In this document: positions 7,569 through 52,972 of the stretch, piece after piece
Layout: each line of letters begins with the position of its first letter
Position numbering within the stretch: position 1 is the stretch's first letter
Origin: Geitlerinema sp. PCC 7407
Lineage (GTDB): Bacteria > Cyanobacteriota > Cyanobacteriia > PCC-7407
DNA: 64,000 nt
Assembly: GCF_000317045.1 (NCBI RefSeq)
Contig: NC_019703.1
Span: 3,666,934 to 3,730,933 of the forward strand
Direction: 5' to 3'
The notes under the pieces: generated by a model
Told to the model about the DNA's origin: nothing
The model's database searches: none
The model's input: the letters and a program-made list of their open reading frames with translations, nothing else
Program-made: the position numbers and the translations under genes

Positions 7569-10500
7569 CTAGGACCGTTTGCCCAGCAGCCAGTAGGTCA
7601 TCATGTGGCCCTTGCCCTTGATGGGCACCATTCCCCGAGGCCGAAACTCATAGACGTCGCGCAGGCGCTCGTAGGTGTCAGTGGTGACCTGAATGCCGCC
7701 GGGCTCGCCCTGGGATTCCATGCGGCTCGCCACATTCACCGTGTCGCCCCAGAGGTCATAGATAAATTTCTTCTTGCCAATGACGCCCGCGACGACCGGC
7801 CCCGTGTTGATGCCGATCCGGAGGCGGAAGGGCTCGCCATTGTGGGTCTTCATGCCGCGAATACTGGTCATCATGTCGAGGGCCATATGGGCGATCGCCT
7901 CTGCGTGGTCCTCGCGAGGGCAGGGCAAGCCGCCAACCACCATATAGGCGTCCCCAATGGTCTTGATCTTCTCTAGGCCGTGGGTCTCAGCGAGATGGTC
8001 AAAGTTCGAGAAGATGTGGTTGAGCAGCGATACCAGCTCCGTCGGCGACACCTGGGCCGACAGCTCTGTGAAGTTCACCAAGTCTGCGAACAGGACCGTC
8101 GCTTCGGCGAAGCTGTCGGCGATGTTTTTTTCGTCCAGCTTGAGGCGCTCAGCGATCGGCTCCGGCAAAATATTCAGCAGCAGCCGCTCAGCGGTTTCCT
8201 GCTGGTAGCGCAGAGCCTCTTGCCAGATGCGGCGCTCCGTAATGTCGACCACCGCCCCCTCGTAGTAGAGGAGCTGCCCCGTCCCATCGCGCACGGCTCG
8301 GGCATTTTCGGAGATCCAGATCACGCTGCCGTCGCGCCGATAAATCTGGGACTCGAAGTTGGAAAGAGAATCTTGCTGATTGAGGATAGCAACAAACTCC
8401 TGCCGCCGCTGGGGATCGACGTAGAGCTGCTCTGCCACACTGGTCAGAGTCTGGATGATCTCCTCGGGGGAGTCATAGCCATAGATGTGAGCGAGGGCCT
8501 GGTTGACGCTGATAAAGCGACCATCCGCCGTGGTTTGGAAGATGCCCTCGATGGCGTTTTCGAAGATGCTGCGGTACTTTTCTTCGGCGGCGCGCAGGGC
8601 AGTCTCAGCGCGCTTGCGCTCGGTGATGTCGGTGAGGGTGCCCATAGAGCCAATCACGGCCCCGCTAGCATCGTGGACCGGCGTGCCATTGGCCAGCACC
8701 CACAGCAGCGTGCCGTTGAGGCGCTGATACTGGATTTCGTACTGGTCGCTGATTTCTTGGCGGCGGAGCTGGCGTTTCTCGGCCAGCAGGCGGCGATCGC
8801 GATCGCTCCCCACAAAGCGCTGCTCATTTTGGCCCAGGAGCGCCTCCCGAGGATAGTCCAGCAGCTCGCACACGCGATCGTTGACGAACTGGATCACCCC
8901 CTCGTTGTCCACGATCAGCAGGCCCTCATGCATCTGCTCGATCAGGGTGCGATACTTGGCCTCGCTGTCCCGCAGGGCCTGCTCAGACAGCTTGAGCCGC
9001 GTGACATCCCGCGCCACCCAGATCACCGTCTCACGAGACAGAGGTGAGACACTGGCCAAGAACCAGCGATCGGCTCCCTGGGTCGTGAGCTGATATTCTA
9101 CGTTCAGTGTTTTTTGGTCGGCGATCGCCTTGCGAATGTAGCGCAGCTGCAGCGCCGCCAGCTCCGCCGGCACAATCTCAAACACCGTCCGGCCCACCTG
9201 ATCCGCCGCTGGCTTCACCAGCAGCTCCGGATTGGTCGGCGCCACCTTGAGGCAGCGCCCCTCCGCGTCATAGACAAAAATCAGGTCCGTCATCGCGGCC
9301 ACCAGGCCCCGCAGCTCGGCCTCGGACTGCTTTTGCTGGAGGGACACGCCCAGCTGCGCCGCCACCGCCGACACCAGCTCCACCAGCCGCTCATCCTGCT
9401 GGCGCGCCCGATGCATAAAGAACACCAGCACCGCCGCCACCCGCGCCGCGCTGCCCGGCGTTTCGGGCGTCACGATGGGCACCGCAAAGCCCGCATTCAG
9501 GCCTGCGGCCTGAGCTGCATGGGCTCGCTGGGGCAGCACGTTCGCCGCGTCCGCCACCTCCAAGATCCACTCCGGCTGCCGGCTTTGCCAGACCCGGCCC
9601 GCCAGCCCCTGGCCCGGCGCTGGGGTCATCTGGGCCGCCTGCTGCCAGAACTGCTCAAAGGCCTCGCGAGTCGCCCCGTCAGCATCGAGAGACGGTCGGC
9701 ACCACATCGGCCCGTAGGTCAGCGCCGTCCCGTCAGCATTGGGAATCCACGACTCGCCCACGTCCCAGCCCGTGGTCTCGCAGACCTGGTGCAGCGCCAT
9801 GCCCAGGGCATCGTGAAAGTCCGACGCCGCGTCGATCGCCTGGGTAATGGTCAGCAGCAGCTGTAGCTCTTCTTCGGCCCGCTTGCGGCCAGTAATATCT
9901 CGTGAGACCCAGATCACCGAGTCCTCGGTCAAGGGCGAAACCGTAGCGGCAAACCACACTTCCTGGCCGTTGATCGGCAGGGTGTACTCGACGCTGAGGG
10001 TTTCTTGGGTGGCGAGGGCCTCGCGGGTGTAGCGGAGCTGCAGGTCAGCGGATGCCTTGGGCAGTACCTCGTGGAGCAGCTTGCCCAGCTGATCTTCGGC
10101 GCGCCGGAAGAGGTTAAAGATCTTGGTAGGAGCGACTTTGAGGCATCGCCCCTCACGATCTAGAACGATAATCACGTCCTCCATGGCCGCAAAGAGCGCC
10201 TGCATTTCGGACTGGGCCGCCTGCAGCTCGCGGGTGCGCAGCTTGACCCGGCGATCGAGCTCTTCGTTGGCCAGAGCCAGGGTGGCAAAGGAGGCCTGGA
10301 GCTGCTCTCCCATCTGGTTGAAGGAATGGGCCAAGACTTCTAGCTCAGCCACGGGCTGGACGGTGACGGTTTGGTCGAGCTTGCCATTGGCGATCGCCCG
10401 AGAGGCCTCACTCAGCCGCAAAATCGGCTGGCTGATCCAGCGGGCCGTCGCCACTCCCAGGGCCGTCGCCACCCCCAAGGCCGCAAAGCACAGCAAAATC

Positions 10501-26568: not shown

Positions 26569-26938
26569 AGTACGGTTAACAATTATTTACTTATTTTTCA
26601 TCAAGATAACATAGCCTTATCCCCCCTGGGGGGATGAGCTTATTGTAGCGATTTTTCTTCTAGACGCCGACTGTTTTGGGAAAGAAGGACCAAAGTCGAG
26701 GACAACGGCGGCAGGCTTTCAGGTTGTGATCGGGTTAAGGAAAATTGTTACAAGACCGATTACTGTATAGCAGAGACAGTTTTGTGGCTTTCCGCCGGTT
26801 TTTCTAAGGGGTTTCAGGTTTTCACGTTTGTCTGCCATGGCACCGCGAGTCGTTTTGTGCGTCTGCACGAGTGTCCTGGATTTGAGCTAGCCGGCTTTAT
26901 TGCACCAGAGCGCTGTTTACACCCATCATCAGAACCCT
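26569..26938. other. Divergent spacer of DUF3120 and uppP genes with a GC palindrome
   Basis: This AT-rich spacer contains one sharp GC-rich perfect inverted repeat at 26619-26635 (ATCCCCCC-T-GGGGGGAT). It probably holds both promoters. No credible gene is visible. Confidence 0.6.
26619..26635. repeat. 17-bp perfect inverted repeat
   Basis: ATCCCCCC and GGGGGGAT flank a single T in an otherwise AT-rich divergent promoter region. There is no following T tract on either strand, so a simple terminator is unlikely. An operator is possible. Confidence 0.6.
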
Positions 26939-49472: not shown

Positions 49473-51314
49473 CTAGGCAATGGAGGCCATCTTCACATCG
49501 CTTTCTGCCAAGAGCTGCTGCAGCTCTTCAGAATCCACCGTTTCGCGCTCCACCAGCATATCCGCTAGGTTATCCAGCACGCTGCGGTTGCCCACCAGCA
49601 CGCTCTTGGCGCGGCGGTATGCCTGATCCACCAGGTTGCGCACCTCATCGTCGATCGCCGAAGCGGTCTCCTCTGAGAAGTCTCGCTCCGCAGCGATATC
49701 GCGACCCAGGAACATGTTGCCCTGCTGACGGCCCAGCGCCACCGGCCCCAGCCGCTCGCTCATGCCAAAGCGAGTCACCATCTGACGAGCCACGCGAGCC
49801 ACCTGCTGGAGGTCATTGGAAGCGCCCGTCGTCACTTCCTCTTCACCGAAGACGATTTCCTCGGCAACGCGGCCACCCAAAGCAACCGCCATCTGGTTTT
49901 GCAGATAGGCTCGGGAGTAGAGGCCCGAATCCATCCGGTCTTCGCTCGGCGTGAACCAAGTCAGACCGCCTGCGCGACCGCGAGGAATGATGCTGATCTT
50001 CTGAACGGGGTCATAGTCGGGCATCAGCGCGCCCACCAGTGCGTGACCCGCTTCGTGATAAGCCACAAGCTGCTTGCGCTTTTCGCTCATGACGCGGTCT
50101 TTCTTCTCAGGACCCGCCAGAACGCGATCGATCGCGTCGTTGACCTCGTCCATCGAGATTTCGGTCAGGTTTCGGCGAGCCGCCAAAATCGCTGCTTCAT
50201 TGAGCAGGTTCGAGAGGTCTGCGCCCGTGAATCCGGGGGTCCGGCGAGCGATCTTCTCGAGATCCACATCCTTCGCCAGGGTCTTGCCACGGGCGTGGAC
50301 GCGCAGCACTTCCAGACGGCCCTGGTAGTCGGGGCGATCGACCACAACCTGGCGGTCAAAGCGACCCGGACGCATCAGCGCTGCATCCAGCACGTCAGGA
50401 CGGTTGGTCGCTGCGATGATGATGATGCCGGTGTTGCCCTCGAAGCCGTCCATTTCGGTCAGCAGCTGGTTGAGGGTCTGCTCTCGCTCATCGTTGCCGC
50501 CGCCGAGGCCAGCGCCCCGCTGACGACCCACGGCGTCAATCTCGTCGATAAAGACGATACAGGGAGCGTTGGATTTGGCTTGCTCGAACAGATCGCGCAC
50601 GCGAGATGCGCCAACCCCGACAAACATTTCCACAAACTCAGAACCGGAAATGCTGAAGAAGGGAACGCCTGCCTCCCCTGCAACCGCGCGGGCCAGCAGG
50701 GTCTTACCGGTTCCCGGAGGACCCACGAGGAGCACACCCTTAGGAATCTTGGCACCCACCGCTGTGAAGCGATCGGCGTTCTTCAGGAAGTCCACAACCT
50801 CGGTGAGCTCTAGCTTGGCCTGCTCAATGCCTGCCACATCGCCGAAGGTCACCTGGGTTTGGGGCTCCATCTGCACGCGGGCCTTGGACTTGCCAAAGTT
50901 CATGGCCTGACTGCCCGGGCCGCCCTGGGCGCGCCGCAGCAGGAAGAACAGACCCACCAACAGCAAAATCGGGAAGAAGAGACTGCCCAGAGCCTTCACC
51001 CAGAAGCCTTCATCGTTCTGGGGCAGGACAGAAATATCGATGTTGTTAGCGGTCAGAATGTTGATCAGATCCGGGTCATTGGGGGGGATGTTGACCAGGA
51101 TCTTGCTGCCGTCAAAGGAGGTCACCAGCGCGCGAGTTCGATCGGCGCTAATACTGACTTTCTCTACTTTGTTATTTTCAACCGATTGAATAAATTGACT
51201 GTAGCGCCAGGTCTCACGGCTTTGAGGCTGGTTATCAAAGAAGGCAGTCGCTAGGGCGATCACAACGATCGCCAACAGAGCGTACAGTCCTGCATTTCTC
51301 CATCGCTTATTCAC
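49473..51314 (-). CDS. ftsH: ATP-dependent zinc metalloprotease FtsH
   Basis: The 613-residue protein starts at GTG with AGGAGG 10 bases upstream. The first membrane helix (about 9-26), periplasmic/lumenal FtsH_ext domain (about 32-106) and second helix (about 108-127) precede the AAA+ domain: Walker A GPPGTGKT (198-205), Walker B VFIDEID and [22 protein letters not shown]. The zinc protease motif is HEAGH, with later ELLAE-type tail. It forms hexamers in the membrane and degrades damaged proteins such as photosystem II D1. It resembles the cyanobacterial FtsH1/FtsH3 clade. A truncated paralogue lies directly upstream, 238 bp away. Confidence 0.97.
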
Positions 51315-51525
51315 CGAGGGTAATCCTCCTAGAACCTTTATATGTGAGGACTCGCTATATAGATTTCTTGCCGTGATTCACTCCGCGCAATGCCTGAAGC
51401 GACTGTTAGGGCCATTGGTTTGGGGCTGGCCAGCCTGAAAAAGATGCGCTCTGGAGGCGGTCTTCTTGGGCTGTGTCCCAGGTCAAGGGCTGCTTTCACT
51501 CGTTTTTGCAAGAAATCTCAGCATC

Positions 51526-51577
51526 TCTTTGTTAACTAATATTAACTTATCTTCAGGATTCTGCCAGAAGGGCTCGC
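51526..51577. repeat. 52-bp direct repeat, copy B (end of truncated ftsH)
   Basis: This stretch covers the last codons, stop and 3' flank of the truncated ftsH. It matches 52121-52172 at 40 of 52 positions without gaps. The best-conserved block is TTCAGGATTCTGC. Confidence 0.8.
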
Positions 51578-51954
51578 AAGAAGAAGAAGACGCACCCCAA
51601 AAAGATGCCTATCAGGGAAAGGCCCCCAGCTGCTTTGAGCAAAAAGCGTTCATTGCTTTTGGGTAGAACCGCAATATCAACATTATTATCGACCAGGGTG
51701 TTGATGAGGTTGGGGTCGTTGGGAGGGATATCCACCCAAACCTGGCTGCCGTCGGAAGAAGTGACGAGGGCGCGGGACCGATCGTCGCTAATACTGACTT
51801 TCACAACGGTTTTATCTTCAACAGACTGAATAAATTGGCTATAGTCCCAGGTCTCTCGGCCCTGAAGCTGGTTGCTCCAAAAGGCAACGGATACAATAGC
51901 CATCACCACCGCTAACAGCGCATATAGTCCGGCTTTCTTCCATCGCCTACTCAC
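51553..51954 (-). CDS. Truncated FtsH paralogue: membrane and FtsH_ext part only
   Basis: The 133-residue protein aligns without a gap to residues 1-127 of the adjacent complete FtsH, with 76 identical residues (60%). It keeps both membrane helices and the whole FtsH_ext domain ([35 protein letters not shown]). It has no AAA+ or protease domain. Its last six residues (ALLAES) are not FtsH-like but equal the end of the aminotransferase encoded upstream. Its GTG start has AGGAGA 10 bases upstream, the same layout as ftsH. The frame is intact after substantial divergence, so it is probably expressed and could enter FtsH hexamers as an inactive subunit, or bind its partners. Confidence 0.85.
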   Translation of the reverse strand: MSRRWKKAGLYALLAVVMAIVSVAFWSNQLQGRETWDYSQFIQSVEDKTVVKVSISDDRSRALVTSSDGSQVWVDIPPNDPNLINTLVDNNVDIAVLPKSNERFLLKAAGGLSLIGIFLGCVFFFLRALLAES

Positions 51955-52120
51955 AATGCGTTGCTCTCCTGAGACTGTCTGTAGTAAAGGACCACTGGCT
52001 TAATGTCCGCGATGTTTTCATGCACTGGGGGCGGTGGTTTTGAGGCCTAGGGCTGTGCGGAAGATCATTATGAAGCGTTCTCTCATTTATTTCTCCCTTT
52101 ATATCCAGCCTCTTCGTCAC

Positions 52121-52172
52121 TTTTTGTAAACTAATGTCACGCTCTTTTCAGGATTCTGCTAGGAGGGCTTGC
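52121..52172. repeat. 52-bp direct repeat, copy A (end of aminotransferase gene)
   Basis: This stretch covers the last codons, stop and 3' flank of the class IV aminotransferase gene. It is the probable source copy of the repeat at 51526-51577, since the encoded ALLAES tail belongs to the aminotransferase frame here. Confidence 0.8.
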
Positions 52173-52972
52173 TGAAACAGGTCCCGCAGCTCCTGGAGTC
52201 CATCGTGGTTGGGGTCGAAGGCAAGGGGGGTTGAGTCCCTCAAGATTGCGTGGATGGGCACAATTTCGACGACGCTGTTGGTGTAGGCGATCGCCTCAAA
52301 TTCAGCGACGAGTTCTTCTGACCACGGGGCACTTCCCACAGTTTTATTCTGGCGTACGAGCCACGTAATTAACTGCGATCGCACCAGTCCCGGCAAGATT
52401 CCGGCGCTCAGGGGTGGGGTCCACCAGTAGCCATCTCGCCAGCCCCACAGGTTGCCGGTGCTCGTTTCTAGCCAGTGGCCTTTGCCGTTGGTCAAGATGG
52501 CTTCTTGGGCACCGCGATCGCGCGCTAGCTGAAGGGCGCGCCAGGGAGCCAGATAGTTGCCGGTTTTGTGTTCGGGCAGGCTGCGCCGGAAGTCGGCTGA
52601 GTCGGACAGCCACGCAACAACACCCTGCTGCTGACGCAGGGGCAAATCGGCGGGCAGCGATCGCCCAGTGATCCACTCCCGACCATCGGGGAACACCGTG
52701 ATTCGCAGGACCGGAAAGAAGCCCAGGAGGCGCTCGCAGCCCTGGCGAATTTGCTCCCAGTTGGGCGATCGCCACTGGAGCGCCTGGGCGCTGTCGCGCA
52801 GGCGACGACAGTGCCCCAGCCAGTTGGATAAAGGATGATCGAGGGAAGCGCCATACACGCGCAGCGTCGTGAAAATCGTCGCACCATAGAGCAAGCCGGG
52901 CTCGTCAACCGGGATCGAAAGCTGATCCGATTCTTGAAACGAGCCGTTATACCAAAAAGGTTGACTGGACAT
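52148..52972 (-). CDS. Class IV aminotransferase / aminodeoxychorismate lyase-like
   Basis: The 274-residue protein starts at ATG (MSSQPFWYNGSFQESDQLSI). Fold-IV pyridoxal-phosphate features are the Arg-containing FTTLRVYG, the cofactor lysine in EHKTGNYLAPWRAL (about Lys135), and LETSTGNLWGW (about 167-177), with the conserved Glu and the phosphate-binding Ser/Thr. The members split 4-amino-4-deoxychorismate to p-aminobenzoate (PabC) or transfer amino groups to branched-chain or D-amino acids. I favour the PabC group from length and context-free similarity, without proof. It ends in QALLAES; this tail and its 3' flank are duplicated at 51526-51577. Confidence 0.82.
   Translation of the reverse strand: MSSQPFWYNGSFQESDQLSIPVDEPGLLYGATIFTTLRVYGASLDHPLSNWLGHCRRLRDSAQALQWRSPNWEQIRQGCERLLGFFPVLRITVFPDGREWITGRSLPADLPLRQQQGVVAWLSDSADFRRSLPEHKTGNYLAPWRALQLARDRGAQEAILTNGKGHWLETSTGNLWGWRDGYWWTPPLSAGILPGLVRSQLITWLVRQNKTVGSAPWSEELVAEFEAIAYTNSVVEIVPIHAILRDSTPLAFDPNHDGLQELRDLFQQALLAES

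Follow-up and report, generated by a model that had tools for sequence, protein, structure and literature searches.

The window analysed here, a stretch of 64,000 nucleotides from the Geitlerinema sp. PCC 7407 genome (one contig of 4,681,111 bases), carries a stand-alone gene for the membrane-anchored N-terminus of the FtsH3 protease, located directly upstream of the complete ftsH3-like gene from which it was copied (Table 1). The fragment lacks the entire catalytic half of FtsH, and its codons evolve more slowly at amino-acid-changing sites than neutrality predicts. The likeliest reading, to which we give somewhat less than an even chance on these comparative grounds, is that it is a co-regulated and dispensable mini-protein, born by duplication and kept under constraint, which would tune FtsH3 through the periplasmic interface of that protein.

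Table 1. Features of the fragment locus in the window, and loci of related stand-alone proteins in other genomes (prefix L).
Feature	Position	Strand	Basis or remark
Intact ftsH3-like gene for a type A FtsH of 613 aa; its 5' end was duplicated	49473..51314	-	ORF, Pfam
FtsH3 N-terminal fragment, a stand-alone FtsH_ext protein of 133 aa (GTG start, TGA stop)	51553..51954	-	ORF, Pfam, alignment, omega <1
Ribosome-binding site AGGAG of the fragment	51966..51970	-	11 nt before the GTG start
Fragment TM helix 1, residues 7-27	51874..51936	-	11/21 identical to FtsH3, still hydrophobic
Fragment periplasmic/lumenal FtsH_ext domain, residues 28-104	51643..51873	-	53/77 identical to FtsH3
Fragment TM helix 2, residues 105-127	51574..51642	-	9/23 identical to FtsH3, strongly diverged, still hydrophobic
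Last six fragment codons and stop (ALLAES-stop), duplication junction	51553..51573	-	Derived from the aminotransferase gene 3' end
Class IV aminotransferase (PabC/IlvE-like) gene, 3' end duplicated	52148..52972	-	ORF, Pfam; gene order with ftsH3 conserved among relatives
Upstream repeat copy: aminotransferase 3' end and upstream element	52120..52172	-	77% identical to 51525-51577
Downstream repeat copy, holding the fragment's last codons and stop	51525..51577	-	77% identical to 52120-52172
HLR1-like (RpaB) element GTGACATTAGTTTACAAA before the fragment, a diverged duplicate of the element upstream of ftsH3	52123..52140	-	15/16 to HLR1
Element TTAATATTAGTTAACAAA before ftsH3, the second of the two copies	51528..51545	-	13/16 to HLR1; identical to the L004 element
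FtsH_ext-PLDc_N locus	L096:2196-2747	-	Stand-alone membrane protein
FtsH_ext-PLDc_N locus	L132:2439-3023	-	Stand-alone membrane protein
FtsH_ext-PLDc_N locus	L133:2128-2673	-	Stand-alone membrane protein
FtsH_ext-PLDc_N locus	L134:2413-3078	+	Stand-alone membrane protein
FtsH_ext-PLDc_N locus	L135:2056-2781	+	Stand-alone membrane protein

The original prediction had described a 133-residue, protease-less FtsH_ext reading frame with a GTG start and a ribosome-binding site directly upstream of ftsH, and ORF and Pfam analysis confirmed each of these points. Pfam assigned FtsH_ext alone to the product (PF06480, E 1e-10, above the gathering score), with AAA+ and Peptidase_M41 domains absent, and no NCBIfam FtsH model reached its cut-off. 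Of the features that define the FtsH family, the fragment thus has an FtsH_ext domain between two N-terminal helices and lacks the AAA+ plus M41 domains. The neighbouring gene, which follows on the same strand after a gap of 238 nt and starts at a GTG with AGGAGG 10 nt before it, encodes FtsH_ext, AAA, AAA_lid_3 and M41 domains; we take its product to be FtsH3-like (type A), as its N-terminus fits the pattern of FtsH3 (slr1604). The predicted gap-free alignment of the two proteins, with 76 of 127 residues identical, was reproduced exactly (BLASTP E 1e-47; 92, 102 and 62 of 127 nucleotides identical at codon positions 1, 2 and 3, respectively), a resemblance far beyond chance at the level of sequence. 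Two hydrophobic segments flank the FtsH_ext domain. The predicted structure has a mean pLDDT of 75.6 (about 77-92 across the periplasmic domain) and superimposes on the hexameric N-domain of E. coli FtsH (4v0b) with a TM-score of 0.94 by target length and an rmsd of 1.1. A scan of genome contigs detected FtsH homologues at 33-52% identity and no close relative. The window genome has two further FtsH genes, which appear to resemble type B, and an FtsH4 match was absent among the matches listed.

The ends of the fragment reveal its origin. It terminates in ...FFLRALLAES-stop and the aminotransferase encoded upstream of it in ...FQQALLAES-stop, and a 53-nt direct repeat spans both gene ends together with the next ~30 nt. 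A second repeat, with a spacing of 640 nt, covers the ftsH 5' end. The recurrence of the aminotransferase end at the fragment end, combined with the repeated ftsH 5' end, demonstrates by sequence comparison a short tandem duplication of a unit comprising the aminotransferase 3' end, the ftsH3 upstream element, the leader and the ftsH3 5' end through TM2. The original prediction had left unnoticed that the last six residues and the stop codon are no FtsH sequence and were copied from the end of the aminotransferase gene. In relatives (L089, L090 and L086) the same aminotransferase gene immediately precedes ftsH3, with no intervening fragment. Past the first 53 nt of the repeat, the intergenic DNA retains a weak similarity (interior local score of 27 versus 19.5 for shuffled sequence, with 16 of 500 shuffles as high), and this interior is, by its sequence, too diverged for dating the duplication; a longer duplication followed by a deletion may have produced the same junction. 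In trees built with FastTree, the fragment is sister to the genome's own FtsH3 with a support of 0.93 (protein) and 0.97 (DNA). Another adjacent pair of similar coding stretches is present in the window at 8970-9326 and 9861-10217 (50% identical over 119 codons by tblastx).

A tandem duplication with one breakpoint inside ftsH3 necessarily produces a shortened copy in front of a complete gene, and the fragment could accordingly be an inert by-product of this event that is slowly decaying: transcribed because the promoter came along in the duplication, perhaps translated, without function, and held in frame by luck and by weak selection against toxic membrane peptides. This alternative is a serious one, and we consider it quite possible. 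It agrees with the much faster evolution of the fragment, which has accumulated 0.68 amino-acid substitutions per site as against 0.05 in FtsH3, and with the probability of about 8-13% that, at 100-150 substitutions, a neutrally evolving stretch of 128 codons stays free of stops; this is not very rare and makes the intact frame a weak test of constraint.

Codon models argue against simple decay. Using our own implementation of GY94 with F3x4 and a separate omega for the fragment branch (122 codons, 7-20 taxa, three taxon sets), we obtained a fragment-branch omega of 0.18-0.28 with free branch lengths and of 0.32-0.40 with equal time imposed on the fragment and FtsH3; these values are rough because synonymous sites are near saturation, and their direction was stable across the sets. 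With or without the equal-time constraint, omega = 1 was rejected for the fragment branch in every taxon set (p 2.8e-5 to 3.5e-3), so that the neutral dN/dS which would have counted against the original prediction was not found. Neither an omega near 1 nor frame disruptions, the hallmarks of a pseudogene, were found. An omega equal to the background (0.07-0.10; about 0.08 for FtsH3) was also rejected (p 0.01-0.04), and the substitution data thus indicate a clearly weaker constraint than on FtsH3; the fragment may accordingly be in late or partial decay. The omega below 1 could in part date from a time with a longer copy. The coding region contains no indel in 381 nt, next to an indel-rich intergenic region, which likewise speaks against an inert by-product.

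The distribution of substitutions along the fragment is the reverse of that among FtsH3 orthologues. The orthologues have a mean identity to the window's FtsH3 of 88% in TM1, 73% in TM2 and 63% in the periplasmic domain, whereas the corresponding values for the fragment are 52%, 33% and 69% (shift relative to five orthologues, p 6e-5 to 0.02). Every FtsH3-conserved column of the periplasmic domain is kept (15/15), which an inert copy would leave unexplained, compared with 8 of 12 in TM1 and 4 of 8 in TM2. Both helices had been predicted to be kept, which is correct for hydrophobic segments and incorrect for much of the helix sequence conserved in FtsH3. The reversed pattern identifies the helices as mere anchors and the periplasmic domain as the part that is kept; the loss of conserved helix sequence speaks against a fragment that simply joins the hexamer like any other subunit and favours an action through the periplasmic domain.

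A search for FtsH_ext-only proteins in related genomes, as had been suggested, gave a mixed outcome. The comparison set comprised 390 genomes of the class, in which the window genome is the sole representative of its genus, family and order; at the aminotransferase-ftsH3 locus no second copy was present among the matches listed, and the fragment is known there from a single genome. FtsH3 N-terminal fragments were found in a distant cyanobacterial genus, on the same strand and upstream of ftsH3, in 5 of 26 genomes (G143, G075, G171, G238 and G022; in G022 the full-length ftsH3 sits on another contig). Fragments of both lineages share one architecture, an FtsH3 N-terminus that stops at or just after TM2 and groups with the FtsH3 of its own lineage, and in the other genus, too, the helices are altered. 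G143 and G075 form a related pair with TM1 extended in frame by 12 residues, and in G143 the duplication extends to the 85 nt immediately before the start, which include the element. The distance to ftsH3 reaches up to 866 nt in this genus, with a peroxiredoxin gene in between in G238, and the G022 fragment (L097:1290-2888) is broken by a ~1.2-kb insertion with a transposase-like coding sequence. In the genus tree the fragments fall into two well-supported groups (1.0 and 0.996), which may be one (0.66-0.86). Pairwise omega was 0.22-0.35 in the group of three (p <6e-4 versus 1), a value difficult to reconcile with an inert by-product, and 0.55 in the pair (p = 0.066); full-length FtsH3 in the same genomes gave 0.02-0.06. 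A family-wide search found the upstream-fragment arrangement confined to that one genus. Because its occurrence is sporadic and one copy is broken, the fragment is dispensable there; together with the fast evolution of the window's fragment, this keeps inert decay plausible.

In five genera of three families, FtsH_ext is instead fused to a PLDc_N domain. The FtsH_ext part of these proteins is closest to FtsH3, some of them have a lipobox-like cysteine near the N-terminus, and no ftsH lies next to their genes in the stretches read. A PLDc_N-like segment fused to TPR-like repeats, related to their tails, occurs at L138:1406-2218 (-) in genome G017. The window's fragment, those of the other genus and the PLDc_N fusions indicate, as judged from their sequences, that a protease-less FtsH_ext architecture arose at least two, probably three times. 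A short FtsH_ext frame in G318 (L086:4999-6839 (+)) was rejected because it belongs to a complete ftsH3 that is frameshifted in this draft genome, probably through an error of assembly or sequencing, and those of G241, G266, G003 and G038, located at contig ends, were set aside.

The duplication also copied a putative regulatory element. GTTAA(T/C)ATTAGTTAACAA or a close variant is present upstream of many of the FtsH3 genes examined (e.g. L003, L004 and L026), ~55-90 nt from the aligned N-terminus. By sequence, this element resembles and is not equal to the consensus of HLR1, the binding site of RpaB (KTTACAWW-N2-KTTACAWW), whose listed targets include ftsH2 and ftsH3 (PMC13421787; cf. PMC11287208). 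The score of the copy before the fragment was equalled by 0 of 300 shuffles, and HLR1-like matches with up to three mismatches number 5 in the whole window versus 2 expected. Since the HLR1 match in single relatives is often no better than chance, we treat the HLR1 identity as a lead and the recurrence of the element as the firmer observation. A further HLR1-like match with two mismatches lies at 26576-26593 (+) of the window. With the element duplicated before both genes, the fragment is likely transcribed under the same conditions as ftsH3.

These features would also suit a translated leader. In that case the fragment would matter through its duplicated element and by holding ribosomes on a long ftsH3 transcript; ftsH3 would be expressed more strongly or acquire one more regulated start site, and the peptide would be incidental. 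Both element copies are kept, the upstream one as the better HLR1 match; a terminator search of the gap before ftsH3 was negative (one weak match, at chance level, falls inside the fragment), and the short gap between the genes permits co-transcription. We nevertheless consider a leader unlikely, as it leaves the amino-acid constraint concentrated on the periplasmic domain unexplained and sits poorly with the distant fragments of the other genus and the intervening peroxiredoxin gene. Slightly less probable still is a neofunctionalised two-helix membrane protein that has left FtsH and puts its FtsH_ext fold to a different use in the lumen, as may the FtsH_ext-PLDc_N proteins, which occur independently and away from ftsH. 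The diverged helices fit this view; the complete set of FtsH3-conserved columns in the periplasmic domain speaks against it, as does the position of the gene beside ftsH3, where it is preceded by its own copy of the ftsH3 upstream element.

Our preferred reading, a periplasmically acting modulator of FtsH3, can be put as a sequence of steps. A tandem duplication left a protease-less FtsH3 N-terminal mini-gene before the intact ftsH3. Constraint at the amino-acid level, according to the substitution statistics, has since focused on the periplasmic domain, with hydrophobicity alone required of the helices. Having its own copy of the HLR1-like, RpaB-type element, the fragment is probably expressed from it and hence together with FtsH3. 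The product is most likely seated in the membrane, where its FtsH_ext domain may engage the same targets as that of FtsH3 itself, candidates being the periplasmic ring of the hexamers FtsH1/3 and FtsH2/3 or the partners that these hexamers have on the periplasmic/lumenal side. Both heterocomplexes have FtsH3 in common (PMC9020784), and a mini-protein made of its periplasmic domain would therefore be best placed to compete for ring contacts or partners. The fragment could tune FtsH3 activity by competition or by modulating assembly, in a role that its absence or loss in relatives suggests is accessory and non-essential.

Conservation beyond chance and the existence of similar mini-genes elsewhere raise the prospect that the fragment may be a built-in protease regulator. 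A wider proposition, possible though in our judgement doubtful, is that protease-less FtsH3 mini-proteins, encoded in cis and duplicated with their upstream element, have evolved repeatedly in cyanobacteria as dominant periplasmic regulators of FtsH heterohexamers, a class not described before. The arrangement had been put forward as one without a described parallel: the literature searched indeed describes no stand-alone FtsH_ext protein, but the arrangement recurs in the distant genus and is therefore not confined to the window. The determinants of cyanobacterial FtsH levels and activity have been described as poorly known (PMC11287208). FtsH3 is the subunit common to the essential FtsH1/3 complex and the photosystem II repair complex FtsH2/3; a constrained, catalytically empty FtsH3 N-terminus, if real, would be a natural probe of the role of the periplasmic domain and a model of how regulators of essential complexes emerge from partial tandem duplications. 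Because the arrangement recurs in a second lineage, where one genus contains intact as well as broken copies, the question can be tested both comparatively and by deletion.

Among known systems, HflK/HflC, prohibitins and Psb29 are non-proteolytic regulators of the FtsH complex. The fragment, proposed to work as such a non-proteolytic partner, differs from them in that they are unrelated in sequence, whereas it is a piece of FtsH itself. Its TM1, FtsH_ext domain and TM2 derive from FtsH3 of the Synechocystis slr1604 type, and the upstream element was copied with them; it differs from FtsH3 in the missing AAA+ ATPase and M41 domains, the aminotransferase-derived C-terminal tail and the diverged helices. 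The FtsH_ext-PLDc_N proteins resemble it as stand-alone combinations of FtsH_ext with membrane segments and no protease, and are set apart by their C-terminal domain, their location and, in some, the lipobox-like cysteine. The FtsHi proteins of plants and algae are FtsH paralogues without proteolytic activity, some of which occur in complexes with other FtsH (PMC9020784); unlike the fragment, which is without the whole cytoplasmic half, they keep the AAA+ domain and lose the protease motif (HEXXH). The closest counterparts are the upstream fragments of the other genus, which are likewise protease-less FtsH3 N-termini on the same strand, with altered helices and, in one clade, an omega below 1, but which have a separate origin close to the FtsH3 of that genus, with a TM1 extension in two and a broken frame in one.
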